NCBI GenBank assembly: GCA_009823395.1
Contig: CM020505.1
Location: 1-64,000, forward strand
Source: Thamnaconus septentrionalis
Lineage: Eukaryota; Chordata; Actinopteri; Tetraodontiformes; Monacanthidae
DNA: 64,000 nucleotides
Direction of reading: 5' to 3'
Shown: piece by piece, positions 3,798-50,528 of the stretch
Layout: each line of letters opens with the position of its first letter
Numbering within the stretch: position 1 is the first letter of the stretch
The notes under the pieces: generated by a model
Told to the model about the DNA's origin: nothing
Database searches by the model: none
The model's input: the letters and a program-made list of their open reading frames with translations, nothing else
Translations under genes and position numbers: made by a program

Positions 3798-5047
3798 AAC
3801 CCTACTTCGGTCACTGTCCTAAGCCCTATCCCGGATCCTAACCCCAAAACTTAACTCAAAGTACTGCAACCAAGACACTAAGCCTAAATCTGATAATCGC
3901 CATTGTCCACGCCCAATTTTTGAGAAGCATTGACGAAGAATTCCAGCTGAGCTAAAATGAAGAGGCCACTGCAGGGTGTGAGCCAAAGTTTTTTTATTGC
4001 GGGAAATGGAAAGGATACAGTTTCAGGAAATAGAAGGGAAGAATGACTTGAGAAAAGAAAAAGGGAAAGAAGATGGACGGGAAGAGGAAAGCGAAAGAAG
4101 AGGACAAGAGGAAGAAAAGAAGAAGAAAGATACCTACCTTGGACCTGTCCTGGGCATGACATTAAACTGCAACCTGGAAAAGAAAGAAGGGTTGGAGAAA
4201 GGAAAGAAGAAGAACCAATTCGAACCTGAAAAAGAAGAAAAAAGGCAAAATTAGAGACAAACAATGACAAAAAACAATAATAAAACCCATACTTACCTGG
4301 ACGATTTAAGAACACCAATTGGAAACCTGAAAAAGAGAACAAAAAAACAACATTACAACAAGGAAACAATTCTAATTGAAAGCACTTACCTGGTGGCAGC
4401 AGACGAGTGTTCCCACCTGAGGGAAAAGCAGAAAAATGACCAAATAGTCAACTGCAGTAGATGACGGTGGGGTCAAATCAACAAACATGCAAAAAATACA
4501 AGACAATTCGGATCTAATTCTAATCGGAAACACTTACCTGGTGGCAGCAGATGAGGGTTCCCACCTGAAGGAAAAGCAAAAAGAAGACCAAATAGTCTCA
4601 TGCTACGGATGACGGTGGGGTCAAATTAACAATCACATACACAATTTGGAAAAAGGGAGAAGACAAATTTACAGCCAAAAGAAGAAAAGAAATTAAAGAC
4701 ACAAAGTCAAGAAGAAAGTCCAGAGTGAAGAGAAGAAGGAGGAGAGGAAAGAATGGGGCAGAGGGAAAGACCCAGAGCCCAAAAAAGTGGCCAAGGACAA
4801 ACATCCTTGGTCCCTTCAGGTCGGCCACTCGCCTGAAGAAGGGCACAAACCAGCCCGAAACGTCGCGGCAAAGCCGACCTACATCCACTTGAGACGTCAA
4901 GAAAGGACAATTTTTTGAACTCCCACCACCTTCGGGTGGTGGAACAAACCTGAGATCAAGACCCAGAACCCGGGACATGCCTTCCCACTCCACGGCAGGC
5001 CCGTGCACCGCCCGTCCTAGGCTCGGGACGTGGCCTTTTTCCAAAAA
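3798..5047 (+). repeat. Satellite family C, copy 1
   Basis: A 1.25-kb unit. On the - strand two 27-nt possible exons (4,390-4,416 and 4,538-4,564) are nearly the same sequence. Each lies between a pyrimidine-rich CAG acceptor and a GTAAGTG donor. Further donors lie near 4,293 and 4,133, and AATAAA at 3,993-3,998 (TTTATT on +). The + strand has the GCATGACATTAAACTGCAA box (about 4,154), a hammerhead-like motif, a CCACCACC-TTCG-GGTGGTGG hairpin near 4,923 and a terminal segment before the telomeric tract. Confidence 0.83.
4819..4879 (+). ncRNA. Hammerhead-ribozyme-like motif (C copy 1), well formed
   Basis: Stem I outer arm GGTCGGC (4,819-4,825) pairs with GCCGACC (4,873-4,879), and inner arm CGC (4,830-4,832) with GCG (4,865-4,867). 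The core is CTGAAGA (4,833-4,839) and one extra A follows. Stem II is GGGC (4,841-4,844) with GCCC (4,853-4,856), then GAAA (4,857-4,860) and CGTC. The palindrome ACGT stands where stem III should be, so a full stem III needs a second molecule. The expected cleavage site is after GTC (4,864). Dimer-forming hammerheads of this kind are known from PLEs. Confidence 0.75.
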
Positions 5048-5104
5048 CCTAACCCTAACCCTAACCCTAACCCTAACCCTAACCCTAACCCTAACCCTAA
5101 CCCT
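5048..5104 (+). repeat. Interstitial telomeric tract (CCCTAA)n
   Basis: About nine units at the + 3' end of C copy 1. Confidence 0.94.
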
Positions 5105-6480
5105 TTCCCAAGCCTAAACCTAACCCTAAGTGGAAACAAACTTAAGCCCAATTTAAATGCCTAATTTGAACCTAAAATTTACATTATTGCCTAATTTGAA
5201 CCTAAATTTGGACTGCCAGCTCTAACCCTAACCTTTAACCCTACTTCGGTCACTGTCCTAAGCCCTATCCCGGATCCTAACCCCAAAACTTAACTCAAAG
5301 TACTGCAACCAAGACACTAAGCCTAAATCTGATAATCGCCATTGTCCACGCCCAATTTTTGAGAAGCCGCTGACGAAGAATTCCAGCTGAGCTAAAATGA
5401 AGAGGCCACTGCAGGGTGTGAGCCAAAGTTTTTTTATTGCGGGAAATGGAAAGGATACAGTTTCAGGAAATAGAAGGGAAGAATGACTTGAGAAAAGAAA
5501 AAGGGAAAGAAGATGGACGGGAAGAGGAAAGCGAAAGAAGAGGACAAGAGGAAGAAAAGAAGAAGAAAGATACCTACCTTGGACCTGTCCTGGGCATGAC
5601 ATTAAACTGCAACCTGGAAAAGAAAGAAGGGTTGGAGAAAGGAAAGAAGAAGAACCAATTCGAACCTGAAAAGAAGAAAAAGGCAAAATTAGAGACAAAC
5701 AATGACAAAAACAATAATAAAACCCATACTTACCTGGACGACGAAGAACACCAATTGAAAACCTGAAAAGAGAACAAAAAAAACAACATTACAACAAGGA
5801 AACAATTTAATTGAAAGCACTTACCTGGTGGCAGCAGACGAGTGTTCCCACCTGAGGGAAAAGCAGAAAATGACCAAATAGTCAACTGCAGTAGATGACG
5901 GTGGGGTCAAATCAACAAACATGCAAAAAATACAAGACAATTCGGATCTAATTTAATCGGAAACACTTACCTGGTGGCAGCAGATGAGGGTTCCCACCTG
6001 AAGGAAAAAGCAAAAAGAAGACCAAATAGTCTCATGCTACGGATGACGGTGGGGTCAAATTAACAATCACATACACAATTTGGAAAAGGGAGAAGACAAA
6101 TTTACAGCCAAAAGAAGAAAAGAAATTAAAGACACAAAGTCAAGAAGAAAGTCCAGAGTGAAGAGAAGAAGGAGGAGAGGAAAGAATGGGGCAGAGGGAA
6201 AGACCCAGAGCCCAAAAAGTGGCCAAGGACAAACATCCTTGGTCCCTTCAGGTCGGCCACTCGCCTGAAGAAGGGCACAAACCAGCCTCGAAACGTCAAG
6301 CAAAGCCGACCTCCACATCCACTTGAGACGCCAAGAAAGGACAATTTTGAACTCCCACCACCTTCGGGTGGTGGAACAAACCTGAGATCAAGACCCAGAA
6401 CCCGGGACATGCCTTCCCACTCCACGGCAGGCCCGTGCACCGCCCGTCCTAGGCTCGGGACGTGGCCTTTTTCCAAAAAC
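5105..6480 (+). repeat. Satellite family C, copy 2 (fuller 5' part)
   Basis: Matches copy 1 over 5,224-6,480 and extends further left. The extra part has a doubled TTGAACCTAAA segment separated by ATTTACATTATTGCC. All landmarks of copy 1 recur, including the two 27-nt - strand exon-like segments, the GCATGACATTAAACTGC box (about 5,594) and the TTCG hairpin near 6,356. Confidence 0.83.
6250..6311 (+). ncRNA. Hammerhead-ribozyme-like motif (C copy 2)
   Basis: Same fold as the copy at 4,819 with small changes: GCCTCGAAACGTC where copy 1 has GCCCGAAACGTC, and CAAGC in place of GCGGC. The outer GGTCGGC/GCCGACC arms are kept. Confidence 0.6.
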
Positions 6481-6573
6481 CTAACCCTAACCCTAACCCT
6501 AACCCTAACCCTAACCCTAACCCCCTAACCCTAACCCTAACCCTAACCCTAACCCTAACCCTAACCCTAACCC
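6481..6573 (+). repeat. Interstitial telomeric tract (CCCTAA)n
   Basis: About 15 units with one CCCCTAA variant. Confidence 0.95.
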
Positions 6574-6675
6574 ACCTTCGGGTGGTGGACTAACTAAGGG
6601 CTAGGGGGCCCACCCAAAGCACACCCTGTCGCAGAGCGTGCACAGGTTACTCCCTAGGGAGTAACCCTTTATTCC
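6574..6675 (+). repeat. D-family 3' stub
   Basis: Only the last 100 bp of a D-like unit: TTCGGGTGGTGG (hairpin remnant), GGGGGCCCACCC, a GTCGCAGAG segment and the ACTCCCTAGGGAGT hairpin, then telomeric repeats. A 3'-end-only copy between two telomeric tracts is what a 5'-truncated reverse transcript would leave. Confidence 0.7.
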
Positions 6676-6717: not shown

Positions 6718-7965
6718 ATTTGACTTCTAAATTAACCCCTAATTGGACTACATCTAACCACTAACTGATCCTAACCCTAACCTTAACCCCTAACCCTGTA
6801 CCTAATCAGAACCCCTGACCCTGTTCCTAACCCCTTAATCCAACCCTTAGCCCTAATTTAATCTCAGTATTTAATCCCTAAATCTGATCAAAAGCCCATT
6901 TGTCTATCTAAAGCTATAACTCACGCCAATCAAGACAGGAGGCCGCTGTAAGTGGGAACAGTTGAGCCAATATTTATTTATCGCATATTAGCGCATTTTT
7001 ATTAAGGCATCGAGGACAGCAGAGGACATAATGGAGTGGATGACCATGGACCTGGAAGAAAAGAAAGGAGAAGATTAGTGGAGTAAAGGAGAGATACGGG
7101 AAGGACAGAGGAAAAGAAGACAAGGGAGGAAGAAGATGGGAAGGGGAAAGGAAGAAAGGGATAAAGGAAGAGGAAAGGAAGAGGATAGAGAAGAAAAGAA
7201 GAAAAGGATAAAACCTACTCACCTGAACCACTTACCTGATTGGAGAACCTAAAAAAGAAGAAGAAACAATTAATTGGACCAACAAAAATACATTATACTT
7301 ACCTGATTGGAGCCCCCTGTGGAAAGAAGAACAACAACAAATTAATGAAAAATTCGGACAAACAAATACTAATTGAACAAGACTTACCTCGATGATTGAG
7401 TTGATGTAAGAGGCCCCATATTAGGGTCCGCACTCTTAATGACAGGACCGCCTTTCCCACCTGAGGGAAAAACGTAAAAAATCCCATATTAGGGCATTAC
7501 GTAGTAGATGACGGTGGGTGTCTATTACAGGTACAAATTAATAAATTATAAACTATACAAAGTCACTTAAATTAAACATTCATAAATTATACTAAATTTT
7601 ACTTACTCAAGCGCCCTGGGCACGACGTTAAACTGCAACCTGAAAAAAAGATTTGAGACCAATTTTTGAAACCAATTTTTAAACCAATTTTTGAAGAGGG
7701 AGGGAGGTGCAGCAGAGCACGGGCCTCTTAGAGCGACAAGCCATTTCAGGCAGTCAGCTCCAGACGGCCAGCGCCTGAGGAAGGCTATAACAAGCCGAAA
7801 CGTTGCGCGAACGCCGTCTCCACGCTAGCTAAATGCTAAGTGTAATTTTTGGACAACCCACCACCTTCGGGTGGTGGACAAACTAAGGGCTGGGGGGCCC
7901 ACCCGGATCGCACTCTGTTGCAGAGAGTGCACCGGTTTTCTCCCTAGGGAGATAAACCTTTTTTC
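6718..7965 (+). repeat. Satellite family D, copy 1
   Basis: A 1.25-kb unit. It has a TAACCC-rich degenerate left part and TTTATT at 6,973-6,978 (AATAAA on -). A purine-rich segment follows (7,030-7,215), with - strand donors GTGAGT and GTAAGT near 7,217 and 7,230. Repeated ATCCCATATTAGGG-type boxes lie near 7,415 and 7,480. The GCACGACGTTAAACTGCAA box is at about 7,619. The right end has a hammerhead-like motif, a CCACCACC-TTCG-GGTGGTGG hairpin (7,859-7,878), a GCACTCT/AGAGTGC hairpin (about 7,909-7,930) and a CTCCCTAGGGAG hairpin. Confidence 0.83.
7763..7818 (+). ncRNA. Hammerhead-ribozyme-like motif (D copy 1), well formed
   Basis: Stem I arms are GACGGC (7,763-7,768) with GCCGTC (7,813-7,818), and GCGC (7,771-7,774) with GCGC (7,805-7,808). 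The core CTGAGGA is at 7,775-7,781 and one extra A follows. Stem II is GGCT (7,783-7,786) with AGCC (7,793-7,796). GAAA is at 7,797-7,800, followed by CGTT. The helices match the C copy although nearly every paired base differs, which argues for selection on the fold in the past. Confidence 0.75.
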
Positions 7966-8037: not shown

Positions 8038-8240
8038 TCGACCGCACTTGATGAAGGGCATGAGAGCCCAAACGCTATGCGCAACGGTCGACTTCATTTC
8101 TAGCAAAGACCTGCTATGAAAAATTTTGACCTCCACCACCTTTGGGGTGGTGGAACCCAAGGCTGAGAGATCTGCCTCACCAATCCACTCTGAAGCGGAG
8201 AGTGCACTGGTTCTCTCCTTCGGGAGAGAACTCTTTTTCC
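8038..8240 (+). repeat. Satellite module B-I, copy 3
   Basis: A hammerhead-like motif at 8,038-8,092 has outer arms TCGACCG and CGGTCGA that pair fully. Its core reads TTGATGA and the GAAA box lacks G. The usual three hairpins follow, then telomeric repeats. Confidence 0.8.
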
Positions 8241-8276: not shown

Positions 8277-9002
8277 TTTTTATTAACACATATTAGTGAA
8301 TTTTTGAAGGCCTAGAGAAGAGCCAAGATGGATGAGACCTGGGAAGAAGAGGGAGTAGGAGTCTAAAGAAGAAGAAAGGGAGGATCAGAGGATCAAAGGA
8401 GGAAAAGAAGACCACTTACCTGTAAAACATCACCTGAAAACCTGTGGGAAGGAAAAGACATAATTAGTCACCAAATTGAACCTATAATTAGAGAAATAAA
8501 TACTTACCCAAAACCTAATACTTACCTGGAACCCCTAAAAGGAAGAAAAAGTCATAATAGACATAATTCGAAACCCTAAAAGGAAGAAACCTGTAAGAAG
8601 GAAATTTAATTGGAATACTTACCTTGTTAAGTAACTCACTGATGGAAAACTGCACAAATCCCATACTAGGGTGTGCAGAGTAGATGAAGGTGAGAGTCTA
8701 TTCCGTCCTGGCATGACGTTAAACTGCACCCTGAGGGAGCAGCTGGGCACGGGCCCAAGTGGAGTAGGCCATATCAGGTTGTTTCACTCTGTCGATCCGC
8801 GCTTGATGAAGGCCTTGTACGGTCGAAACGCTATGCGCAACGGTCGACTTATTAAAACTAGCTAAGGAACAGCTATGTTTAAATTTTTTTGAACCTCCAC
8901 CACCTTTGGGTGGTGGAACCAAAAGCTGGGAAATCTGTCCTCACTAACCCATTCTGAAGAGGGAGGTGCACCGTTCTCTCCTTCGGGAGAGAATCTTCTT
9001 CC
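8277..9002 (+). repeat. Satellite module B-II, copy 3
   Basis: Same landmarks as copies 1 and 2: - strand donor near 8,412, GCATGACGTTAAACTGCA box (about 8,711), hammerhead-like motif, CCACCACC hairpin near 8,898 and TTCG hairpin near 8,975. Confidence 0.82.
8791..8849 (+). ncRNA. Hammerhead-ribozyme-like motif (B-II copy 3)
   Basis: Arms GTCGA and CCGCGC pair with GCGCAACGG and TCGAC. The core is TTGATGA (one C-to-T change). Stem II GGCC/GGTC is followed by GAAACGCTATGCGC. Everything but the first core base and the ACGT palindrome (ACGC here) is kept. Confidence 0.6.
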
Positions 9003-9581: not shown

Positions 9582-9668
9582 CCTAACCCTAACCCCTAAC
9601 CCTAACCCTAACCCTAACCCTAACCCTAACCCTAACCCTAACCCTAACCCTAACCCTAACCCTAACCC
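9582..9668 (+). repeat. Interstitial telomeric tract (CCCTAA)n
   Basis: About 14 units, directly joined to the left end of an E unit. Confidence 0.95.
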
Positions 9669-10388
9669 TTATGTCTGTTTAGCCCTTTATTGCCTGTTCT
9701 GAAGTCCTATAAGACACCCAAACTAGCCCCTATACTAAACTTAACCCTTGGGGAGTGTGTCAAACCTAACCTTTTCGGGAATGTACCTAAACCTAACCAC
9801 CAATTGACGCTTAAAGCCCAACCCTTAATTCGAAGTTCATCCTTAACCTCCTAAGCCTGTCCCTAAACCCTAACCTCGAAAACCGAGCAAACCCAGACCC
9901 TGACCTTTGACCTGACCCTGCCTCTTCGGAGGGTACGGGAATGACGGTCAGAGGATGGGGAATGGGGGAAGGGAAGAGGGAAAGGAAGGATGGAGGAGGG
10001 GAGGGGTAGTTAATCCCTTCGAACCCAGTTCTATCCTATAATTTATTCCCGATACCCTTAAACTAAAGCCCATCAGTCTCTTTTAAGCCATTTACTCAAG
10101 CCAATTCATGAAGCCACCATGAAGAATTCCGTTGAGCTTAATTTAAAGAAAGCCACTGATGACACATTCCAGTTGAGCAAATATATTTTATTATCGCATA
10201 CAAGCGTGGGGGGATAAGGCATAAGAGAAAGGTTGAAGACTTGATGAAGCATTACAACTAAGGAGACGGATGACAAGAATGGAAGTCTGAGGAAGAAAGG
10301 ATTAAACAAACAAACAATTATACTTACCTGGCACCTAAATTGAAAAATAAAAACAAATACTTACCTGTCACCTAAGCACTTACCTGCA
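9669..10388 (+). repeat. Satellite family E, left part of a unit
   Basis: Clear E sequence from TTATGTCTGTTTAGCCC through the A/G-rich block (about 9,940-10,010), TTTATT at 10,188-10,193 and the first - strand donors (10,322-10,390). Beyond 10,388 the match stops being continuous. Confidence 0.85.
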
Positions 10389-19300: not shown

Positions 19301-19470
19301 CTAACTAATACCAAAGCCATCGAATTGAAATCTCATCTAATGCATGCCTGATAATTTCTAGAAGCCTCAATCACTAATCACTAAAGAAAGAGAGGGCAAC
19401 TGAAGGGAAAGTCTTCCATTGAGCAGAAACTTAACCAACGGGTACTCACGAGTTGGGACGGATGTGGTCC
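10389..19470. other. About 9 kb garbled or extremely diverged E-like sequence
   Basis: No tandem copies, telomeric tracts, hairpins or credible genes are visible, and homopolymer runs of five or more are rare. Weak E-unit echoes occur in the right order. At 13,420-13,600 the series AGTTCCACATAATTTA, CTTTATAAGCCATTA, AGAGAATTCC and AAGGTTGAAGAC parallels E landmarks. At 17,290-17,340 a GGGAATGGAGAGTG-type stretch parallels the E A/G-rich block. Clear E sequence returns at 19,471. The length would fit about seven E units. An assembly consensus failure is my preferred reading; a very old array is the alternative. Confidence 0.6.
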
Positions 19471-25001: not shown

Positions 25002-25007
25002 TTTATT
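25002..25007 (-). promoter_or_regulatory. Possible poly(A) signal AATAAA (E unit 5, - strand)
   Basis: TTTATT on + is AATAAA on -. A TGTG-containing stretch follows within 30 bases downstream on the - strand. The signal lies after the last acceptor of the exon-like cluster. An AATAAA at the same relative place occurs in B, C and D units. Confidence 0.5.
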
Positions 25008-34502: not shown

Positions 34503-35751
34503 CTTATGTCTGTTTAGCCCCTTTATTGCCTGTTCTGAAGTCCTATAAGACACCCAAACTAGCCCCTATACTAAACTTAACCCCTTGGGGAGTGTGTGCT
34601 CAAACCTAACTCTTTCGGGAATGTACCTAAACCTAACCACTAATTGACGCTTTAAAGCCCAACCCTTAATTCGAAGTCTCATCCCTAACCCCTAAGCCTG
34701 TCCCTAACCCTAACCTCGAAACTGAGCAACCTAGACCCTTGACTCTTGACCTGACCTCTGCTCCTCTTCGGAGGGTAATGGAATGACGGCCAGAGGATGG
34801 GGAATGGGGAAGGGGAAGAGGGAAAGGAAGGGATGGAGGAGGGGAGGGGTAGAAGTTAATCCCTGAACCCAGTTCTATCCCATAATTTATTCTTTATACC
34901 CTTAAATCTAAAGCCCATCAGTCTCTTTTAAGCCATTTACTCGCTTTCAATTCATGAAGCCGCCGATGAAGAATTCCGTTGAGCTAATTTAAAGAAAGCC
35001 ACTGATGACACATTCCAGTTGAGCAAATATATTTTATTATCGCATACAAGCGTGGGGGATATGGGCATAAGAGAAAGGTTGAAGACTTGATGAAGCATTA
35101 CAACTATGAGACGGATGACAAGAATGGAAGTCTGAGGAAGAAAGGATTAAACAAACAAACAATTATACTTACCTGGCACCTAAATTGGAAAAAAATAAAA
35201 AACAAATACTTACCTGTCACCCAAGCACTTACCTGCAACCCAAATTAAATACTTACCTTTAATTGGAACCCCTACAGTGGACAAACCTAAAAGAGAAGAA
35301 AAGACAGTTAATTGGCTTATACTTACCGGAAACTCTGTTGAAGCTGGTATACTCACCGGATGGAAAACTATAGATATCCCCTACTGCGCCTATAGAGTAG
35401 ATGATGGTGAGGTTCTATTCCGTCCTGGGCATGACGCAAACTGCAGCCTCATGGGAGGAGCAGGCCTTGGGCCTTAGGTTAGAGCAAGCCATACTAGGCC
35501 GCCACCTTTCAAATGACTTGCCTGATGAAGGGCGGAAAGTCAAACGCTGCAACAGTCGACTGCTAACTATTCCAACGAGATTAGTTGAATTTTTGACTCC
35601 CACCACCTTAGGGTGGTGGTTCACAGCTAAGGGATCTGCCCAGAGCCTCCCTCAAGCGAGAGTGCTACAGTTCTTCTCTTCGGAGAAGAACTTTTTTTTC
35701 CTTAACCTTACCCGGCCGGGTCCCATGTGAGTTTGGTGATGGATGTGGTCC
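34503..35751 (+). repeat. E unit 13
   Basis: The hammerhead region (about 35,510-35,560) has lost the outer AGTCGAC arm (AAATGAC) and the GAAAC box (GTCAAACG). Confidence 0.88.
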
Positions 35752-36951
35752 CTTGCGTCTGTTTAGCCTTTATTGCCTGTTCTGAAGTCCTATAAGACAC
35801 CCAAACTAGCCCCTATACTAAACTTAACCCCTTGGGGGAGGTGTGCTCAAACCTAACCCTTTCGGGGAATGTACCTAAACCTAACCACTAATTGACGCTT
35901 AGCCCAACCCTTAATTCGAAGTTCATCCTTAACCCTAAGCCTGTCCCTAACCCTAACCCCGAAAACTGAGCAAACCCAGACCTGACCTTGACCTGACCCT
36001 GCTCCTCTTCGGAGGGTACGGGAATGACGGTCAGAGGATGGGGAATGGGGAAGGGAAGAGGGAAAGGAAGGATGGAGGAGGGGAGGGGTAGAAGTTAATC
36101 CCTGAACCCAGTTCTATCCTATAATTCTGTATTCCCACTTTAAATTCAAAGCCCATCAGTCTCTTTTTGAAGCCATTTACTCAAGCCAATTCATGAAGTC
36201 ACTGATGAAGAATTCCGGTTGAGCTAATTTAAAGAAAGCCACTGATGACACATTCCAGTTGAGCAAATATATTTTATTATCGCATACAAGCGTGGGGGGA
36301 TAAGGCATAAGAGAAAGGTTGAAGACTTGATGAAGCATTACAACTAAGGAGACGGATGACAAGAATGGAAGTCTGGAGGAAGAAAGGATTAAACAAACAA
36401 ACAATTATACTTACCTGGCACCTAAATTGGAAAAAATAAAAAAACAAATACTTACCTGTCACCTAAGCACTTACCTGCAACTCTAAATTAAATACTTTAC
36501 CTTTAATTGGAACCCTACAGTGGACAAACCTAAAAAGAGAAGAAAAGACAGTTAATTGGCTTTATACTACCGGAACTCTGTTGAAGGAAGTATACTCACC
36601 GGATGGAAAACTATAGACATCCCCCTACTGTGCCTATATAGAGTAGATGATGGTGAGGTTCTATTCCGCCCTGGGCATGACGCTAAACTGCAGCCTCATG
36701 GGAGGAGCAGGCCTTTGGGCTGTGGTGGTTAGAGCAAGCTATACTAGGCCGCTTCACCTTTCAGTCGACTTGCCTGATGAAGGGCGGAAAAGTCTGAAAC
36801 GCTAAAACAGTCGACTGCAACTATTCAACCAGATTAGTTGAATTTTGACCTCCCCAACCACCTTAGGGTGGTGGTTCTGCAGCTAAGGATCTGCCCAGAG
36901 CCCTCTCTCGGAGAGAGTGCCACAGTTCTTCTCTTCGAGAAGAACTTTTTC
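35752..36951 (+). repeat. E unit 14 (last, ends at telomeric repeats)
   Basis: The hammerhead region (about 36,764-36,816) keeps CTGATGA and GAAAC with wobble pairs in stem II. After the TTCG-type hairpin the unit ends CCTAACCC instead of the CCGGCCGGG joint. Confidence 0.88.
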
Positions 36952-37011
36952 CTAACCCAACCCTAACCCTAACTCCTGCAACCCTAACCCTAACCCTAAC
37001 CCTAACCCTAA
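36952..37011 (+). repeat. Interstitial telomeric tract, interrupted
   Basis: About nine CCCTAA units with a CTCCTGCA interruption, between E unit 14 and a C stub. Confidence 0.9.
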
Positions 37012-37116: not shown

Positions 37117-38705
37117 TCCCGCCAGTGCCGCCAGGGTTGGCCCCGGGAGGTTCTGATCCTCACAGAGCCTTCATTTGAGGCACAATGGAGTAACCCCAAC
37201 CCATATCTTTATCACTAAACCTAACCATCCCCTTCCCATGCCTAAACAGAACCCTAATTCGAACGCCTAAAACCCAACCATCTTAACCCTAATTTGGAAC
37301 GCCTAAACTTAACCATTCCTCCCAAGCCTAAACCTAACCCTTAAGTGGAAACAAACTTAAGCTCAATTTAAATGCCTAATTTGAACCTAAAATTTACATT
37401 ATTGCCTAATTTGAACCTAAATTTGACCTGCCAGCTCTAACCCCAACCTTTAACCCTACTCGTCACTGTCCTAAGCCCTATCCCGATCCTAACCCCAAAA
37501 CTTAACTCAAAGTACTGCAACCAAGACACTAAGCCTAAATCTGATAATCGCCATTGTCCACGCCTAATTTTTGAGAAGTCATTGACCTGGAAGAATTCCA
37601 GCTGAGTTAAAATGAAGAGGCCACTGTAGGTGTGTGAGCCAAAGTTTTTATTGCGGAAATGGAAAGGATACAGTTTCAGGAAATAGAAGGAAGAATGACT
37701 TGAGAAAAGAAAAAGGAAAGAAGATGGACGGGAAGAGGAAAGCTAAAGAAGAGGACAAGAGGAAGAAAAGAAGAAGAAAGATACCTACCTTGGACCTGTC
37801 CTGGGCATGACATTAAACTGCAACCTGAAAAGAAAGAAGGGTTGGAGAAAGGAAAGAAGAAGAACCAATTGAACCTGAAAAAGAAGAAAAGGCAAAATTA
37901 GAGACAAACAATGACAAAAAACAATAATAAAACCCATACTTACCTGGACGAATGAAGAACACCAATTGGAAACCTGAAAAAGAGAACAAAAACAACATTA
38001 CAACAAGGAAACAATTCTAATTGAAAGCACTTACCTGGTGGCAGCAGACTTAAGTGTTCCCACCTTTGAGGGAAAAGCAGAAAATGACCAAATAGTCAAC
38101 TGCAGTAGATGACGGTGGGTCAAATCAACAAACATGCAAAAAAATACAAGACAATTCGGATCTAATTTAATCGGAAACACTTACCTGGTGGCAGCAGATG
38201 AGGGTTCCCACCAGAAGAAAAGCAAAAAGAAGACCAAATAGTCTCATGCTACGGATGACGGTGGGGGTCAATTAACAATCACATACACAATTTGGGAAAA
38301 AGGGAGAAGATAAATTTACAGTTTCAAAAGAAGAAAAGTGAAATTAAAAGACACAAAGTCAAGAAGAAAGTCCAGAGGAGAGAAGAAGGAGGAGAGGAAA
38401 GAATGGGGCAGAGGGAAAGAGACCCAGAGCCCAAAAAAGTGGCCAAGGACAAACATCCTTGGTCCTTTCAGGTCGGCCACTACCTGCCTGAAGAAGGGCA
38501 CAACCAGCCCGAAACGCCGCGCAAAGCCGACCCACATCCACTTGAGACGCCAAGAAAGGACACTTGAACTCCCACCACCTTCGGTGGTGGAACAAACCTG
38601 AGATCAAGACCCAGAACCCGGGACATGCCTTTCCCACTCCACGGCAGGCTTCGTGCAAAACCTATCGCCCGCCCTAGGTTCGGGACGTCACAGGCCTTTT
38701 TCCAA
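37117..38705 (+). repeat. Satellite family C, copy 3 (longest 5' part)
   Basis: Extends further left than copies 1 and 2 with a GCCAGTGCCGCCAGG-type segment and repeated CCTAAACCTAACC words. The rest matches C, including the 27-nt exon-like segments near 38,036 and 38,187 and the GCATGACATTAAACTGCAA box (about 37,806). Small indels are frequent. Confidence 0.82.
38471..38531 (+). ncRNA. Hammerhead-ribozyme-like motif (C copy 3)
   Basis: Outer arms GGTCGGC and GCCGACC, core CTGAAGA, stem II GGGC/GCCC and GAAACG are all kept. The expected GTC cleavage triplet reads GCC here. Confidence 0.6.
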
Positions 38706-38780
38706 AAAACCCAACCCTAACCTAAACTAACCCCCATAACCCTAAACCCTAACCCTAACCTAATAACCCTAACTTAACCT
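38706..38780 (+). repeat. Degenerate telomeric tract
   Basis: CCCTAA-like words with many length changes. Confidence 0.75.
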
Positions 38781-40163
38781 TTCCTCCCAGCTTCAAACCC
38801 AACCCTAAGTGGAAACAAACTTAAGCCCAATTTAAATGCTCAATTTGAACCTAAAATTTACATTATTGCCTAATTTGAACCTAAATTTGGACTCGCCAGC
38901 TCTAACCCTAACCTTTAACCCTACTTCGGTCACTGTCCTAAGTCCTATCCCGGGATCCCCAACCCCAAAACTTAACTCCCAAAGTACTGCAACCAAGACA
39001 CCTGCCTAAATCTGATAATCGCCATTGTCCACGCCCCTCATCTTTTGGAGTAGTCTTGACCTAAGAATTCCAGCTGAGCTTAAAATGAAGAGGCCACTGC
39101 AGGGTGTGAGCCAAAGTTTTTATTATGGAAATGGAAAAGGATACAGTTTTCAGGAAATAGAAGGGAAGAATGACTTTGAGAAAAGAAAAGGGAAAGAAGA
39201 TGGACGGAAGAGAAAGCTAAAGAAGAGGACAAGAGGAAGAAAATAGAAGAAGAAAGATACCTACCTTGGACCCCTGTCCTGGCATGACATTAAACTGCAA
39301 CCTGGAAAGAAAGAAGGCTTGGAGAAAGGATTAAGAAGAACCAATTTGAACCTTGAAAAGAAGAAGAAAAGGGCAAAATTAGAGACAAACAATGACAAAA
39401 ACAATAATAAAACCCATACTTACCTGGACGACGTAAGAACAACCAATTGAAACCTGAAAAAGAGAACAAAAAACAACATTACAACAAGGAAAACAATTCT
39501 AATTGAAAGCACTTACCTGGTGGCAGTACTTCAGCAGTTCCCCAACTGAGGGAAAAGCAGAAAATGACCAAATAGTCAACTGCAGTAGATGACGGTGGGG
39601 TCAAATCAACAAAACACGTAAAACCAAGACAATTCGGATCTAATTCTAATCGAAAACATCTTACCTGGTGGCAGCAGATGAGGGTTCCCACCTGAAGGAA
39701 AAGAAAAGAAGACCAAATAGTCTCATGCTACTGGATGACGGGGTCAAATTAACAATCACATACACAATTTGGAAAAAGGGAGAAGACAAATTTACAGCCA
39801 AAAGAAGAAAAAGAAATTAAAGACACAAAGTCAAGAAGAAAGTCCAGAGTGAAGAGAAGAAGGAGGAGAGGAAAGAATGGGCAGAGGGAAAGACCCAGAG
39901 CCCAAAAAGGGGCAAGGACAAACATCCTTGGTCCCTTCAGGTCGGCCACTTCCTGAAGAAGGCACAAACCAGCCCGAAACGCAGCGGCAAAAGTCGACCC
40001 ACATCCACTTGAGAGACGCCAAGAAAGGACAATTGAACTCCCACCACCTTCGGTGGTGGAACAAACCTGAGATCAAGACCCAGAACCCGGGACATGCCTT
40101 TCCCACTCCACTGCAGGCCTGCAATCGCCTGGCCCCAGGCTCGGGACGTGGCCTTTTCCAAAA
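38781..40163 (+). repeat. Satellite family C, copy 4
   Basis: Matches copy 2 from the TTGAACCTAAA doublet onward. The hammerhead-like motif at 39,940-40,000 has CTGAAGA and GCCCGAAACG but GCAG instead of GTC, and its 3' arm reads GTCGACC. Confidence 0.8.
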
Positions 40164-40250
40164 CCCAACCCTAACCCCAACCCTAACCCTAACCCCAACC
40201 CAACCCCCTAACCCTAACTCCTAACCCTAACCCTAACCCTTAACCCTTAA
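40164..40250 (+). repeat. Interstitial telomeric tract, imperfect
   Basis: About 12 units including CCCCAA and CTCCTAA variants. Confidence 0.88.
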
Positions 40251-40403: not shown

Positions 40404-41646
40404 TTTGACTTCTAAATTAACCCCCTAATTGGACCACATATCTAACCACTAACTGATCTCTAACCCTAACCTTAACCCTAACCCTGTACCTAATCAGAAC
40501 CCCTGGACCTTAAGTTCCTAAACCCTTAATTCAACCCTTAGCCCTAATTTAATCTCAGTATTTAACCCTTAAATCTGATCAAAAGCCCATTTGTCTATCT
40601 AAAGCTATAACTCACGCCAATCAAGACAGGAGTCAGCTGTAAGTGGGAACAGTTGAGCTAATATTTATTTATCGTGATATTAGCTTATTTTTTATTAAGG
40701 CATCGAGGACAGCAGAGGACATAATGGAGTGGATGACTATGGACCTGGAAGAAAGAAAGGAGAAGATTAGTGGAGTAAAGGAGAGATACGGGAAGGACAG
40801 AGGAAAAGAAGACAAGGAGGAAGAAGATGGGAAGGGAAAGGAAGGAAAGGGATAAAGGAAGAGGAAAGGAAGAGGATAGAGAAGAAAAGCTAGAAGAAAA
40901 GGATAAAACCTACTCACCTGAACCACTTTGCCTGATTGGAGAACCTAAAAAGAAGAAGAAACAATTAATTGACCCTAACAAAATACATTATACTTACTGA
41001 TTGGAGCCCCTGTGAAAGAAGAACAATAAACAATTAATGAAAAAATCGGACAAACAAATACTAATTTGAACAAGATTTACCTCGATGATTGAGTTGATGT
41101 AAGAGGCCCCATATTAGGGTCCGCACTCTTAATGACAGTACCGCTCTTCCCACCTGAGGGAAAACGTAAAAAATCCCATATTAGGGCATTACGTAGTAGA
41201 TGACGTGGGTGCCTATTACAGGTACAAATTAATAAATTATAAACTATACAGTCACTTAAATTAAACATTCATAAATTATACTAAATTTTTACTTACTCAT
41301 GTCCTGGGCACGACGTTAACCCGCAACCTGAAAAAGATTTGAGACCAATTTTTGAAACCAATTTTTTAAACCAATTTTGGAAGAGGGAGGGAGGTGCAGC
41401 ACACGCACGGGCTCTTAGTAGCAAGCCATTTCAGGCAGTCAGCTCCAGACGGCTGTGCGCCTGGAGGAAGGCTATAACAAGTCAAACGCTGTGCCGAACG
41501 TTCGCCACGCTAGCTAAATGCTAAGTGTAATTTTGGGATTGCAACCCACCACCTCGGTGGTGGACAACCATAATGGCTGGGGGGCCACCCGATCGCACTC
41601 TGTTGCAGAGAGTGCACCGGTTTTCTCCCTAGAGATAAACCTTTTT
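40404..41646 (+). repeat. Satellite family D, copy 2
   Basis: Matches D copy 1 along its length with scattered indels. The hammerhead-like region (about 41,443-41,510) has decayed: GAAAC reads GTCAAACG and the outer arm is changed. The closing hairpins are recognisable at 41,549-41,640. Confidence 0.82.
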
Positions 41647-41721
41647 CCTAACCTCAACCCCAACCCTAACCCTAACCCTAACCCTAACCTAACCCTAACC
41701 CTAACCCTAACCCTAACCCTC
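41647..41721 (+). repeat. Interstitial telomeric tract (CCCTAA)n
   Basis: About 12 units with CTCAA and CCTAA variants. Confidence 0.92.
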
Positions 41722-41925
41722 GACTCACGCCTGATGAAGGGCATGAGAGCCTGAAACGCTATGCAACTGCTCACTCATTTCAGCAAAGACCTGCTATGAA
41801 AAAAAATTTGACCTCCACCACCTTTGGGGTGGTGGGAAACCGCGCTGAGAGATCTGCCTCTACCAATCCACTCTGAAGCGGAGACTGGTCTCTCCTCTTC
41901 GGGAGAGAACTCTTTTTTCCTTAAC
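41722..41925 (+). repeat. Satellite module B-I, copy 4
   Basis: CTGATGA, GGGC/GCCTGAAACG and the hairpins are present. The outer stem I arm on the 3' side has changed (GCTCACTC). Confidence 0.78.
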
Positions 41926-41960
41926 CTCAACTCCTAACCCTAACCCTAACCCTAACCCTT
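41926..41960 (+). repeat. Interstitial telomeric tract (CCCTAA)n
   Basis: About four good units with a CTCCTAA variant. Confidence 0.88.
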
Positions 41961-42695
41961 TTTATTAACACATATTAGTGAATTTTTGAAGGCCTAGAGA
42001 AGAGTCAAGATGGATGAGACCTGGAAGAAGAGGAGTAGGAGTCTAAAGAAGAAGAAAAGGAGGATCAGAGGATCAACAAAGGAGGAAAAAGAAGACCACT
42101 TACCTGTAAAACATCACCTGAAAACCTGTGGAAGGAAAAGACATAATTAGTCACCAAATTGAACCTATAATTAGAGAAATAAATACTTACCCAAAACCTA
42201 ATACTTACCTGGAACCCCTAAAAGGAAGAAAAGTCATAATAGACATAATTCGAAACCCCTTAAAAGGAAGAAACCCAAGAAGGAAATTTAATTGAATACT
42301 TACCTTGTTAAGTAACTCACTGGATGGAAAACTGCACAAATCCCATACTTGGGGTGTGCAGAGTAGATGGTTGGTGAGAGTCTATTCCGCCCTGGCATGA
42401 CGTTAAACTGCACCCTGAGGGAGCAGCTGGGCATCGTACCCAAGTGAGCAGCCATGATCAGGTTATGTTTCACCTCTGTCGAATCAGCGCTTCGATGAAG
42501 GCCTTTGTACGGTCGTAAACGTTGCGCGCAACGGTCGACTTATTAAAACTAGCTAAGGAACAGCTATGTTTAAATTTTGAACCTCCACCACCTTTGGGTG
42601 GTGGAACCAAAAGCTGGGAAATCTGTCCTCACTAACCCACCTCTGAAGAGGGAGGCACCGTCTCTCTCCTTCGGGAGAGAATCTTCTTTCCTTAA
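41961..42695 (+). repeat. Satellite module B-II, copy 4
   Basis: Same landmarks as the other B-II copies: - strand donor near 42,099, GCATGACGTTAAACTGCA box (about 42,395), a decayed hammerhead region near 42,479-42,540 and the closing hairpins. Confidence 0.8.
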
Positions 42696-44745: not shown

Positions 44746-45194
44746 ATGCAGCAGTTAAACTTGTCATCCCCTGTAAACCCTCCAGGGCGCTGCTGACTGC
44801 TCCTCCTTACACTCCATTGTTCAAAATAACATTGTTAATCTTTCCAAGAATCTTACACTTAATGATGCACAAATTAGTCTACTTAGTAGGGGCCTTTCCT
44901 TTGTCCCATCTATCAACACTGCATCTCGTGATATTCTAGAATATGATTTACAGTGTTTTCACAGGAGACTCAAATTGGCAGCATATTTTGAAGGTACCAG
45001 AGAAAAACTCTTCTTCCCTTTCTCCCTCCCTCCTTGTGGTCACCGCAGCATCTAATCTCCCCAGAGGTCATTAATCAATTAATTACTAGGAACAACAGGT
45101 CCTTTAAATCTAAATTTCGTTTTTTTTCAAAGAGAAAACAACCTTTCTTCAGAAGAAGTTCTAGCTTTAAATTCGCTTTTTAAAACAACTCAGA

Positions 45195-45990
45195 TATTGT
45201 CATCAAACCAGCTGATAAAGGTAGCGCTGTTGTCATTATGGACAGATCAGCTTATGTAAATGAAGCACCGACAACTTAATAATCCTAATCATTATAAAAC
45301 ACTGGATGCACCTATCTATCCAGCATCTTATCCCATTCTCAGGATATCCTAACCTCCCTTTTAAATAGAAAATTTATTAACATTAAACAATTTAGATTCC
45401 TCCTGGGAGATGAGAAACCGAATGAAAGAAAATTTTACATGCTTCCTAAAATACACAAAGATCCTTCCACCTGGTTTCCACCTTTGTTATGCCGCCAGGC
45501 TCGACCTATTGTTTCTGATTGTGGTAGTGACACCGATGACAGAGTGTGCTTTGATTTTATTGAATACTTTTTAAATCCCTCTCCATGAAACATCCTTCCT
45601 ACATTAAAGACACACATATCATTTTATTGATATTGTAAAGAACCTCATAATTCCTCCCAACTCATTTTTATTCTCCCAGATGTGGATAGTTTATACACCA
45701 ATATTGACACCAAATCGGTCTTACGGCAGTACAAAAAATCTTTTATAAATATCCTGACCTTTCGTCCGACAGAGACTTATTAAGATTACTTGAATTAAAC
45801 TTGACTAGAAATGATTTTGTTTTTGATTCAAAATATTATTTACAAATTAAAGGAACAGCAATGGGCAAATCTTTTGCCCTCTTATGCCAATATCTTCATG
45901 GCTGTTTGGGAGGAAACAGCTCTCACCAATTGTCCCACCCTCCATTACATTATTACAGGTTCCTGGATGATATTTGGGGAATTTGACCTC
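45195..45990 (+). pseudogene. PLE reverse transcriptase core
   Basis: This part carries the palm and fingers motifs. The catalytic aspartates are visible in DVDSLYTNID (motif A) and FLDD (motif C, 45,960-45,971). Reading passes between at least three frames. One break lies inside the stretch after GTAMG, where the SYANIFM motif is found in another frame. The enzyme would copy element RNA at a free 3' DNA end, but cannot be made from this copy. Confidence 0.85.
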
Positions 45991-46699
45991 TCCATGGAGC
46001 AGTTCCAACAATTTATTTCTTTTCTCAATGATGTTGATCCTTCTATTAAACTTAAATTTGAAATTTCTGAACGTTCAATTAATTTTTAGACACTACAGTT
46101 TTATAAGGGACTTAAATTCTCTGATCAAAATAAATTGGACATTAAAGTCTACTTTAAACCCACAGACACACACACGCTTACTTTATAAAACAGCTTTCAT
46201 CCAAAACACACTTTTAGAGGTATTGTCAAATCACACCATTATTGGTGCTTTTAAACGTATTTGCACTGTTCCAGGAGACTTTCAGGAGGCGGTCCGGAAC
46301 CCTTTTTCAAGCCTCCGCTCCAGGGATATTCTAGATGTTTTCTAAGACAATGTTTTGCAACCTTTAGAATTCAGAAAATCAGAGACGACAAGAAAATCAT
46401 TCCCTTTATTTCTACATATTCTACTACTTAGTGTTAATATTAATAGGATCATTAAAATTAATTATAATCATCTGATCCCTAACTCTGGTTTTCTCTCTCT
46501 GACTTTAAGATTATTTCTGCACATAGGAAGAACCCAAATTTAAAGGATATCTTAGTCAGAGCTAGATTGCCAACACTAGAGATGGGTCTTAAAACAACAG
46601 TACGACACAAATGTGATTCTTCTTTTCGACACTTAACCTTTGTCCGAAATTCTGTCTCCCAACTTCTCCTGAGAATTACCCAGAAAATCCATCCGACTG

Positions 46700-46970
46700 A
46701 CCACAACTGTATCTACCTTTCTCATCTGTGATCGATGTGGCAAACAGTGTTGGAGAAACCAAGAACCCATCCTGACTCGCCTCGGCTGGCAACATCGTTA
46801 CAACGCCAGACACGGCCTGAACTGCATACTCCACTCATGCAACATATTCAACTTCATGATTGGACATCGATCAAGGTTGCTGGTCTTCAATGTAACCTGA
46901 ACTGACAGACAAAGAGAGGAAAACATAAGAAAGAAAGTGGATTCATCTTCTTGGCAGCAGACATCCACAT
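46700..46970 (+). pseudogene. GIY-YIG endonuclease-like remnant of the PLE
   Basis: A CIYL start, CDRCGKQ and, in other frames, RYNARHGLN and TDRQRE match the layout of the C-terminal GIY-YIG nuclease of PLEs with its CxxC-type element. The last recognisable part, read near 46,950-46,985, includes HPHGLNKQ. Frameshifts break it. Presence of this domain places the element with endonuclease-bearing PLEs and not with the telomeric, endonuclease-lacking Athena or Coprina types. Confidence 0.7.
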
Positions 46971-48059: not shown

Positions 48060-48460
48060 CTCCCATTCCGGTAGAGGGCACTATTGCACCATTTTTGTAA
48101 AGCCTGCCACCCTGAAAGAAACCTCAATGTAAACAAGCAACCACGTGACTCTACAGGGCGCCCTTCAGACCTCCTTATAACCTGTTGCTCACTCCACTCA
48201 AGCCCAGAACGCCCCACCTCATGAAGAATGTTACCCTCCTTTTGCCCCGCCTGAAGAAGATATTAATCCTTATCGAAACGTCAGCGACGGGCATAGGCAC
48301 AATTTGCCTTTTGTACATATTTGAGCGTTTTCATCTGTTTTATATTTAAAATTTAAATTTGAGTTCAATTTATTTATAACAGTTCTTTGAATTTTCTTTT
48401 CTTAATTTTTGTTTTTTCACCACGACACGGAGAAAACAATCTTGTCAAACCAATAAAAGA
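48060..48460 (+). mobile_element. Probable PLE terminal region with hammerhead motif
   Basis: A GC-richer stretch after the AT-rich tail with CTTATAACC near 48,173 and a hammerhead motif at 48,245. PLEs carry long terminal repeat-like ends with hammerhead motifs near the promoter, which fits. I do not see a matching copy at the 5' end of the element near 43,325, so the assignment to this PLE is inferred from position and strand. Confidence 0.5.
48245..48292 (+). ncRNA. Hammerhead-ribozyme-like motif in PLE tail
   Basis: Stem I is GCCC (48,244-48,247) with GGGC (48,289-48,292), and CGC (48,248-48,250) with GCG (48,284-48,286). The core CTGAAGA is at 48,251-48,257 and one extra A follows. Stem II is GATA (48,259-48,262) with TATC (48,271-48,274). 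GAAA is at 48,275-48,278 and CGTC follows. The A after the GTC cleavage triplet is unpaired. Confidence 0.68.
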
Positions 48461-48682
48461 ATTTTTTTGAATTTACTCGACTTCTGCAAAAAAAAAAGTT
48501 TTCTTTCCATCCTGGGAACCTCACCGCCTCCTCACCCATGGAGCGCCAGCGAGTGGCGCCAACAACCCAGACGCCGGAGAGACAGGGGAGAACTACGACA
48601 CATGTTCCCGAGTGCCAGAAGTCGAGAACCACCACGGAGGATGAATAGTGCCTGCCCGTCTCCCCTCACGGAGTTACCGGAA
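48461..48682. other. Unassigned segment before telomeric repeats
   Basis: No gene is recognised. A 40-bp segment at its right end (GGATGAATAGTGCC to GAGTTACCGGAACCC, about 48,639-48,685) recurs in altered form at about 49,142-49,195. Confidence 0.5.
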
Positions 48683-48749
48683 CCCTAACCTCAATCCTAA
48701 CCCTAACCCCAACCCCAACCCTAACCCTAACCCCTAACCCTAACCCTTA
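48683..48749 (+). repeat. Interstitial telomeric tract at PLE 3' side
   Basis: About 11 CCCTAA-like units with CCCCAA variants. With the tract at 43,272 it brackets the PLE. Confidence 0.9.
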
Positions 48750-49043
48750 GAGAAAACACCAAATAATTTTTTGAAAAGGGAGGGAGGTGCAGCATTGCAC
48801 GGGCCAATTTTTGAGTGACTAACGCCATACCAGGCAGTCAACTCCCAAGACGGTCAGCGCCTGAAGAAGACCACTCTATTGGCCTAAACGTCCACAGAAA
48901 CCGGCTTTCGCATCCTAAACACGAGATGTGTACTTTTTTTGAACCCCACCACCTTAGGGTGGTGGAAAACTTAAGGGCTTGGGGGCCCACCCTGAGCACG
49001 CTCTCAGCCGGAGAGTGCTTAGGTTTCTTAGAGAACCTTTTTT
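48750..49043 (+). repeat. Diverged D-family 3' part
   Basis: Matches the last 300 bp of D: GGGAGGGAGGTGCAGCA, CAGGCAGTCA, a hammerhead-like motif (about 48,852-48,905, core CTGAAGA but TAAAC for GAAAC), the CCACCACC/GGTGGTGG hairpin (48,946-48,965) and the CTCTC/GAGAG hairpin, then telomeric repeats. Everything left of it is absent, as in the other stubs. Confidence 0.7.
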
Positions 49044-49139
49044 CCCAACCCCAACCCTAACCCTAACCCCTAACCCTAACCCTAACCCTAACCCTAACCC
49101 TAACCCAACCCTAACCCTAACCTAACTCCTAACCCTAAC
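49044..49139 (+). repeat. Interstitial telomeric tract (CCCTAA)n
   Basis: About 15 units with a few variants. Confidence 0.93.
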
Positions 49140-49199
49140 GAGGGATGGTTAGTGCCCCTTCCAGTTTCCTCCTCACGGAGTTACCGAACCCCAACACAA

Positions 49200-49610
49200 A
49201 TCCTAACCACTTTCTGGGAGGTGATTTTTCGAAAACACTTGGCTGTTTTTTTGCCACTCAACTAATCTCCCATTGAAATGAATAGCGAAATTCAAACGCA
49301 AATATCGCGAGAACGGTAAGTCTCTACGACCTTGAACCTTGATCTGTCTGACATAATTCGGCCGCGCTGAACACGCTGGTGTACCATCCCCGAGTCTCTA
49401 CGACCTACGGTTCTTGAGATAAGGCTATTTCCGGTATAACTCCGGAACCGGAAGTGACATCATCACGCAACTCACGTCACGGGTAGGTACACGCCCTCAT
49501 ACACATGTGTGTACAAAATTTCAAGTCTATACCTCATTCCACCGTGTGAGATATGGACATTTTTAGGAGGATCGGGAATTCTCGACCGTGGAAAGACACA
49601 TTCTTTGTAC
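49200..49610 (+). repeat. Satellite block A, copy 6, 5'-shortened
   Basis: Starts at CCACTTTCTGGGAGG and lacks the AAAAGGGCATGTTGTATC start. It ends near TTTGTACCC and degenerate telomeric repeats. CpG-type changes are more numerous than in the other copies. Confidence 0.85.
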
Positions 49611-49690
49611 CCAACCCCAACCTCAAACCCAACTCTAACTCCTAACCCTAACCCCAACCTAACTTTAATCCTAACTCTAACCTTTTCTAT
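49611..49690 (+). repeat. Degenerate telomeric tract
   Basis: CCCAACC and CTCTAACC words after block A copy 6. Confidence 0.75.
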
Positions 49691-50528
49691 TCCACACGCC
49701 CAAACGGAACCTTTAAATTTATTTTTTAATTTCTAACGAAAAAACACAAACCTTAATCCTAATCAGAACTCATTCGGTGGGTCAACTAAACAGAATCATT
49801 TAATTTCTACCGAAAACACAACCCTAATTCTAATCAGAACTCCATTCGATGGGCTCGCTTAAACGAACCAGTCCTTTAATATTTACTTAATTAATTTTCT
49901 ATTTGAATTAAAACACTGACTCTATTTGCCTAATCTAACTTTCTTTTGAATATGTACTCCCTTTGAATTTAATTACTTCCTTTATCTTTTGAACTTATAT
50001 TGCCAATAAACAATTATATTACACCTTTACTATTTTATCTTACCTATTATTTCGTTTGCTGTGATCCAGTGTGAGCGTTTATTACCTTTTTGGTGCATGA
50101 GAGAGAGTCTTATATTAGCCACTGTGAAACCTCAGCTACGCAGAGGAAAGTCTCAGTAGGGGCAATCACACCCCTGTTCGGCCTGGGCTTGAGGTTTCTA
50201 AGATAAGGCATTAGCCCCACAATTCCATTACTACCCATCATCCCTAGCATGATGACAACTTCTGGTACCTAAAAATTTTCCACCCATTCTGGGCTACACC
50301 GCCATTGAAGTAGCACCTACCTGGTAAGCTCCTGCTCCAAAACTGTTTTGCTTTTTCACTTTGCCATTTATGCCTGATGAAGATCTGTTTTGTATCGAAA
50401 CGTCGCATAGGCAATACATTCAACACAGTTGAGCACCGTTTTGAGAGAGTTGTTTTTGAGGCTTTTAACTGCCACACACATCGTAATACTTTTCGATTAA
50501 AAAAAAGTTGTTTCTAACTTACTTTTGA
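49691..50528. other. AT-rich segment ending in a hammerhead-bearing tail
   Basis: 49,691-50,060 is AT-rich with a duplicated word set (AACACAACCCTAATTCTAATC type, near 49,750 and 49,815). From 50,060 on it becomes more complex, with AGTCTCAGTAGGGGCAATCA near 50,145 and a hammerhead motif at 50,361. The end near 50,528 is lost in the gap. It may be the end of another PLE; no protein remnant is seen. Confidence 0.5.
50361..50414 (+). ncRNA. Hammerhead-ribozyme-like motif, best formed in the window
   Basis: Stem I is TTGCC (50,361-50,365) with GGCAA (50,410-50,414), and TATGC (50,369-50,373) with GCATA (50,405-50,409), with ATT bulged on the 5' side. The core CTGATGA is at 50,374-50,380 and one extra A at 50,381. 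Stem II is GAT (50,382-50,384) with ATC (50,394-50,396). GAAA is at 50,397-50,400 and the GTC cleavage triplet at 50,402-50,404. ACGT is again the only possible stem III. Confidence 0.75.

Follow-up and report, generated by a model that had tools for sequence, protein, structure and literature searches.

Introduction

HeT-A and TART of Drosophila are non-long terminal repeat (non-LTR) elements that stand in place of telomerase repeats. Telomere-attached Penelope-like elements (PLEs) have been described as endonuclease-deficient (PMC3846280, PMC6431247), and the hammerhead ribozymes of PLEs have been reviewed as minimal type I forms without helix III that may self-cleave as dimers (PMC7761336). 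Here, we analysed the first 64 kb of contig C5 (CM020505.1) of Thamnaconus septentrionalis, hereafter the window, and searched the genome (474 Mb, 132 contigs). We confirmed that hammerhead motifs are present in the repeats of the window, far above chance. These repeats are probably for the most part retroelement insertions with minimal type I hammerheads ending in (CCCTAA)n. They likely arose at chromosome ends when the G-rich telomere strand primed reverse transcription, for which the PLE protein would use its own RNA and, in trans, noncoding RNAs of the other families as templates.

Hammerhead motifs in the window

We searched the window with a covariance model, R1, whose 11 member copies (alignment A5) come from other contig ends and which contains no window sequence. 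R1 gave 29 matches at E <= 10, all 29 on the + strand and 23 with E < 0.005; the E-values are rough, and some members of R1 are homologues of window families. A descriptor scan allowing up to two mismatches also found hammerhead motifs on the + strand only. The initial annotation had claimed that units of families B, C, D and E carry CTGANGA, a stem II, GAAAC and a two-part stem I on this strand, and we found these parts at all six cited sites. Each of the six copies that it had named as the best was recovered by this separate model (E 1.9e-17 to 6e-4). The top match was at 7761 (E = 1.9e-17, 78.3 bits), the other cited copies scored E = 4.6e-12 (4818) and 1.1e-10 (both 25484 and 34262), and the PLE-type copies scored 2.3e-4 (48239) and 6e-4 (50361). 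Family A also has weaker R1 copies, at 471, 1239, 2103, 2868, 8038, 8789, 41731 and 42477 (E 8e-8 to 0.34).

An Rfam search, which the initial annotation had proposed as a check, came out negative: no hammerhead reached E <= 10, either in the whole window or in two small stretches. One half of the refuting condition named in the initial annotation is therefore fulfilled by Rfam. The window copies lack the stem III of the usual models. A genome scan with RF00008 returned zero matches, but its controls also went without a match, and the scan is hence uninformative.

The elements follow the order stem I 5' arm, CUGANGA, extra A, stem II, GAAA, CGUY and stem I 3' arm. Loci L001-L030 were retrieved with a pattern requiring GAAA-CGT[CT] and the extra A, while the window and L031-L050 were retrieved without that demand; alignments A1 and A2, with the outer stem out of register, were left out of the counts. 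CTGANGA is followed by AG, which places the extra A before stem II, in 86/86 core matches, a set partly from pattern-selected loci. GAAA runs into CGT[CT] without a loop in 54 of 59 copies (at least 3 stem II pairs required; 30 of the 50 loci came from the pattern demanding it). Since GAAA is joined directly to CGT[CT], no stem III can be closed in cis. Pairing of the palindrome ACGU would require two copies, and hammerheads that lack stem III in cis would need to work as dimers or together with protein. With the CUGANGA and GAAA core and stems I and II present, and helix III absent in cis, the copies are of the minimal type I hammerhead form known from PLEs, for which cleavage is predicted.

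The initial annotation had also noted that the paired arms differ between families yet remain complementary. This held in 14 anchored distinct copies, kept from 20 after 6 interior-contig copies were dropped: 92.3% of cells were paired, compared to 61.9% in shuffles, with the arms picked as the best helix per copy, a choice that favours pairing. The covariation score was 0.819 compared to 0.184 in shuffles, and none of 500 shuffles scored as high. Slid registers of the same set gave at most 55% pairing in every case, and two inner stem I pairs are broken in 4 of the 14 copies. In the 32 telomere-type copies, the mean Watson-Crick helix was 7.41 pairs, compared to 4.64 (maximum 5.44 in 200) for redealt arms, a control that uses the identical best-helix choice, and 29 of the 32 have at least 6 stem I pairs. 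The 27 other copies showed a small excess (4.67 compared to 3.99, maximum 4.52), with at least 6 pairs in 5. The pairs of alignment A5 covary as well (0.241 compared to 0.102), while the number of further pair types there was not above shuffles (7 compared to 7.2). When G-U pairs were allowed in the stem I test, the background was high (mean 7.5 compared to 5.29 across families), and the Watson-Crick-only test was used instead.

Orientation and location of hammerheads in the genome

The core pattern had 1002 exact matches genome-wide, compared to 3 for its reversal. Positions were listed for 100 of the 1002, and for 69 of these a contig end is at most 110 kb away (44 on the - strand at right ends, 25 on the + strand at left ends). 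All 69 read towards the interior. Among the remaining 31 listed matches, which sit inside contigs or at an end of unmeasured length, both strands occur. A second hammerhead pattern had 303 matches and 0 control matches. Of the 100 listed among these 303, 98 fall into the outermost 600 kb of contigs, zones that together make up about 5% of the sequence, and 80 of these 98 have the orientation expected for their end. R1 matches at 20 contig-end loci agree with the end in 43/43 cases (37 +, 6 -), 8 of the 43 being members of the model.

The possibility that the motifs are chance or decayed matches without common descent would agree with the negative Rfam result. However, it is already excluded by the compensated arms across families, and the covariation, the genome-wide counts of both patterns and the use of a single strand in the window also oppose it. 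We consider it extremely improbable.

The orientation was also compared with the direction of priming. At a left end the G-rich 3' overhang belongs to the bottom strand, so the copied RNA should lie on the top strand with its 3' end beside (CCCTAA)n, as observed. By letter count, CCCTAA occurs 300 times and TTAGGG 19 times on the + strand of the window, and a tract scan of the 64 kb found no TTAGGG tract.

Two dispersed hammerhead-like families (CTGAAGAAGCC..., CTGATGAAGGTC...) were seen inside C1-C3 (L001-L007, L022-L030) on both strands. R1 matches to these interior families are weak or partial.

The 3' module and its junction with telomere repeats

A telomere-like tract follows the R1 match at 135-181 nt in 23 of the 29 window copies. 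The exceptions are four D copies, with the next recognised tract at 277-308 nt, the copy at 48239, with a tract at 398 nt, and the last hammerhead (50361), which has no tract within 600 nt and is followed by an N run (about 50530-50628) that hides its junction. In 66 of 79 copies (L001-L007 left out) a telomere tract is no more than 600 nt away, and in 48 of these 66 the distance is 150-202 nt; the nine interior loci L022-L030 showed no tract in this range. The distance is longer, 266-500 nt, in 18 copies; those inspected include tails of PLE type as well as some noncoding modules in which the search had missed the first tract.

We aligned 26 chosen modules and read in them a small hairpin that varies, the motif AATTTTTTGA, a hairpin of CCACCACC with GGTGGTGG, the motif GGAGAGTGCACC, then the terminal hairpin, a run of T and CC(T)TAACC. 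RNAalifold recovered only stem II, three stem I pairs and the CCACCACC hairpin (covariation term -0.62), and the other hairpins of the module therefore rest on reading the sequences. The motif GGANAGTGC, with at most 1 mismatch, precedes 38 of 98 distinct telomere starts by no more than 110 nt (shuffles: mean 2.5, maximum 6), and for 32 of the 38 the distance is 37-57 nt. This motif with a hairpin, about 45 nt before the junction, is common to the noncoding units and the PLE tails, which carry it as ATGGAGAGTGC or ATGGACAGTGC at the start of open reading frame 1 (ORF1). It suggests a putative start signal shared for the PLE enzyme.

A second recurring telomere-joined end has a GATCGGGAATTTCCCGATCG hairpin, ...CTGTA and CCTAACCC, without GGANAGTGC. 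It was seen in the window at 390, 2034, 3667, 9582 and 43270, and also at L011, L038, L045 and L048. Its 5' side, which reads AGGGCATGTTG...GGCCTGAAACGTG behind a tract, could be a hammerhead truncated within stem II.

The junctions are of two kinds. In the first, tracts of variable length, about 15-129 nt, are followed by differing sequences, which fits separate telomere events. In the second, a linker of 10-16 nt leads to a conserved start like [AG]GCC[AG]GGTCC. This kind was found in the D array and in units at the ends of C3, C4 and C10 (L031, L033, L039), and would fit whole-unit copying by recombination, from tandem RNA or from a circular template.

The units could also be ordinary subtelomeric satellites, in which old PLE fragments with hammerheads came to lie near telomeres and multiplied by unequal crossing-over and exchange between ends, the noncoding units not being reverse-transcribed. 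The regular D array with its fixed linker is as expected of such satellites, as are a block at 3783-9633 duplicated at 37437-43323 (92%) and the recurrence of window families at other contig ends with 70-97% identity. However, many unrelated families share the order ribozyme, module, telomere with compensated arms, the tracts of the first junction kind lead to different starts, and some elements start mid-ORF at telomere repeats. We judge this origin to be unlikely.

Another possibility is that the units are animal non-LTR retrozymes, which are small tandem repeats with hammerheads and spread via circular RNA, and that their place near telomeres is incidental. Type I hammerheads within tandem repeats would be consistent with this, and PLEs or Terminons have been proposed as retrozyme helpers (PMC7761336). 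Yet the window repeat units measure about 1.25-1.64 kb, not the few hundred nucleotides typical of retrozymes, whose RNAs are about 170-400 nt (PMC7229834), stem III is missing, and telomere tracts stand at the unit ends. This makes a retrozyme origin very unlikely.

The Penelope-like element at chromosome ends

The end of contig C1 is a PLE with a hammerhead, an ORF1 of 650 codons, an ORF2 of 767 codons and a second hammerhead. The GIY-YIG domain of its ORF2 scored 32.8 bits (cut-off 22.6) with readable motifs, and three PLE copies are above this cut-off (32.8, 28.6 and 23.5 bits). RVT_1 scored 28.8 bits (E 1.2e-6), just below its cut-off of 29.6. Sequence motifs, rather than a tree, point to a reverse transcriptase (RT) of PLE type. 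A PDB search with ORF2 gave nothing useful. ORF1 (L032:3317-5266, - strand) showed a weak GDSL lipase-like match of 23.6 bits, below the cut-off of 32.9; Terminons, the telomere-attached PLEs of bdelloid rotifers, are reported to carry GDSL esterases (PMC6431247).

The C1 copy has the tandem start and tail (pLTR) with hammerhead of PLEs. Its tail, around and after the second hammerhead, copies the element's own start over at least 605 nt with 98.7% identity, as far as the contig extends. The tail copy stops at codon 19 of ORF1, with CCTA shared with CCCTAA, and telomere repeats follow. An internal RT start has been published for the PLE PAc (PMC11167929), and the C1 tail matches the internal-start tail of that element, here joined to a telomere-type tract. 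On C9 and C19, PLE coding sequence begins mid-ORF directly after a telomere tract. In the genome, 61 ORF2 matches were scored (59 of 238 candidates scored). All 34 scored matches on C1-C19, some of which are pieces of one copy, lie within 600 kb of an end and 28 are concordant with it; 27 further scored matches are on small contigs.

The window itself holds a PLE relic at 44971..46959 (+), with 34% identity to residues 100-755 of the C1 PLE ORF2, 24 internal stops and E 9.8e-93. RT-like motifs are visible in it by eye. Pfam found no RT in ten short pieces of the relic, which was recognised via its similarity to the contig-end ORF2.

With the same enzyme and RNA, GIY-YIG could instead nick inside existing telomere-like repeats, the nicked G-rich strand then priming away from an open end. 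Such nicking is suggested by the retained, readable GIY-YIG domain, ten bits above its cut-off in the C1 copy, and by the telomere repeats that flank many units on both sides. Against it, close endonuclease-less relatives use open ends (PMC3846280). The sequence features described here would fit either course, and we hold nicking to be less likely than priming at chromosome ends.

Same-motif PLEs at other ends, together with the covariation and the R1 matches, support descent of the repeats from hammerhead-bearing elements of PLE type. The inference of the initial annotation, that the satellites are self-cleaving or derive from self-cleaving elements, is supported in part, and its link of the repeats to PLEs is right in substance. 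The term satellite, however, understates the units. Many of them resemble telomere-ended insertions, and regular tandem arrays are seen only in some, such as the D array. From their sequence, they look like 5'-truncated retroelement insertions composed of a ribozyme, about 160 nt of hairpin-rich sequence and (CCCTAA)n.

Organisation of the window

All units, copies and element parts listed below, up to the hammerhead ending at 50414, are on the + strand. A 5'-truncated A unit that begins within the ribozyme lies at 471..669, with a partial hammerhead (471-508) right after a telomere tract, the 3' module and a tract from 670. A similar A unit at 2103..2301 has its hammerhead at 2103-2153 (E 0.15) and a telomere tract from 2302. 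Two B unit 3' ends with modules follow, at 4818..5047 (hammerhead 4818-4880, telomere tract 5048-5129) and 6250..6479 (hammerhead 6250-6312 with inner stem I broken, telomere tract 6480-6570). The C unit 3' end at 7761..7964 consists of the top-scoring hammerhead (7761-7820, 78.3 bits) and its module, with a telomere tract at 7965-8034. An A-type copy at 8038..8238 begins in stem I directly after a telomere tract, the next tract being at 8239-8273, and another at 8789..9000 has a hammerhead (8789-8850), a module and a telomere tract from 9001. A D element without its first bases (9666..10388) adjoins the telomere tract 9582-9665. About 9 kb (10389-19440) between this D 5' piece and the D array has no telomere tracts.

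The D array occupies 19460..36960 as head-to-tail units of about 1.25 kb with fixed short telomere-like linkers, and its last unit leads into a tract at 36961-37012. R1 matches in it are at 20493, 21753, 24231, 25484, 26741, 27992, 29238, 30490, 31750, 33004, 34262 and 36763. The array is flanked by the two copies of the composite B-C-A block mentioned above. Beyond it are B unit 3' ends at 38470..38714 (hammerhead 38470-38533, telomere tract from 38715) and 39939..40180 (hammerhead 39939-40000, telomere tract from 40181). Decayed C and A copies at 41449..42689 have R1 matches at 41449, 41731 and 42477, with tracts at 41664, 41933 and 42690, respectively.

After the PLE relic, a PLE-type tail at 48239..48695 comprises a hammerhead (48239-48297) and about 400 nt up to a telomere tract from 48696. 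An E copy at 48847..49054 has a hammerhead (48847-48907), a noncoding-type module and a telomere tract at 49055-49138. The last PLE-type hammerhead (50361..50414) resembles a C9 copy (L038:1743-1797), and its downstream part is cut by the N run. Further on, the window holds tandem units of about 266 bp at 50629-52198 and 57230-64000, unlike the telomere-joined repeats, and a 0.74-kb stretch repeated at 52199-52936 and 56493-57230 with 99.5% identity.

Proposed mechanism

To explain how such units could arise, we propose that sense RNA would be transcribed from the elements and that a CCUAA-like stretch of the RNA would pair with the 3' G-rich overhang. The PLE enzyme would then copy towards the RNA 5' end, often stopping early, and the truncated end would be capped by new telomere repeats. 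The ribozyme may cut tandem transcripts into units, as a dimer or aided by the PLE protein. Support comes from the ribozyme anatomy and covariation, the orientation relative to ends except for a few reversed blocks, the narrow distances from ribozyme to tract, the end-located PLEs with a probable RT domain and GIY-YIG, the C1 tail copied from its own start, the mid-ORF starts, and the shared GGANAGTGC with its hairpin.

Several observations weigh against priming at chromosome ends with action in trans. Near ends, 18 of the 98 hammerheads and 6 of the 34 PLE matches are reversed, in blocks on C10, C11, C12 and C15. These blocks (C10 266-295 kb, C11 22.85-22.89 Mb, C12 14-57 kb, C15 157-195 kb) are either real inversions or assembly errors. 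At 9 of 17 left-end loci there is no R1 match, and the start of C5 is not a pure telomere array. No GGANAGTGC was found at 60 of the 98 telomere starts, including those of family B, with GGCCCGTGC in its place, and of the second end type. Between D units stands a fixed short linker, not a separate telomere tract for each. Since the GIY-YIG endonuclease is retained, an open end is not required, and a cut at the ribozyme would separate the 3' module from the body in cis. Hammerhead mutants of PAc did not affect insertion in vitro (PMC11167929). Furthermore, no sign of Athena cross-mobilisation is reported for the rotifer studied (PMC3846280), and mobilisation in trans is accordingly the most tentative part of the proposal.

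A more far-reaching model, which we offer tentatively, is that a telomere-specialised PLE bearing GIY-YIG, with noncoding partner families made of a compact hammerhead and an RT-start module, builds chromosome ends alongside telomerase. Here, D-type arrays would come from reverse transcription around ribozyme-processed circular RNA off a telomere primer. A long telomere tract would be retained by the first copy, while its successors would have just the short linker that the RNA encodes. Taken together, the sequence data suggest that the region is better described as a chromosome end made largely of PLE insertions and PLE-dependent noncoding hammerhead insertions.

Comparison with known systems

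We found no report, by title and the start of the abstract, of endonuclease-bearing telomeric PLEs with noncoding hammerhead partners, a weak negative, as the coverage missed main papers. In this fish, elements near chromosome ends keep the endonuclease and have noncoding partners sharing a putative RT-start signal. The repeats thus provide a definite RNA module for asking about the role of PLE hammerheads, called "still a mystery" (PMC7761336), and connect satellite DNA and ribozymes with telomere-primed reverse transcription.

HeT-A and TART are likewise retroelements that are added to chromosome ends (see PMC5537684), but here TTAGGG-type repeats persist between the insertions and the enzyme is of PLE type. 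As in animal non-LTR retrozymes, type I hammerheads occur in noncoding tandem repeats; retrozymes have smaller units, usual helix sizes and loop contacts, and are not described as telomere-repeat-ended in the source cited (PMC7229834). The core with stems and no helix III is like that of the minimal type I PLE hammerheads acting as dimers (PMC7761336). The extra A before stem II resembles CChMVd plus RNA, where a comparable A is said to lower activity moderately (PMC3705267).

The Poseidon-type PAc of Anolis likewise has a hammerhead with only stems I and II near the ORF start, an RT (a probable one here) with GIY-YIG, and a tail from an internal RT start within the ORF start of the next copy. 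Unlike PAc, which targets AT-rich DNA, the tails here join telomere repeats, and there are two ORFs (PMC11167929).

The nearest known system is the Terminons of bdelloid rotifers. Terminons and Athena PLEs are attached to telomeres and carry hammerheads, with reverse-complement telomere repeats at the 3' end and head-to-tail copies 5'-truncated by telomere repeats, an arrangement also found here (PMC6431247, PMC12477314). Terminons are endonuclease-deficient and reach 40 kb, whereas GIY-YIG is kept here; their telomere repeats directly follow the ribozyme, whereas 135-181 nt (noncoding units) or about 350-500 nt (PLE tails) intervene here (PMC6431247, PMC12477314). Short noncoding families bearing the module are a further difference. 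Compared to Terminons, the elements here differ in having kept GIY-YIG, in placing a module between ribozyme and telomere repeats, and in their predicted noncoding partners.

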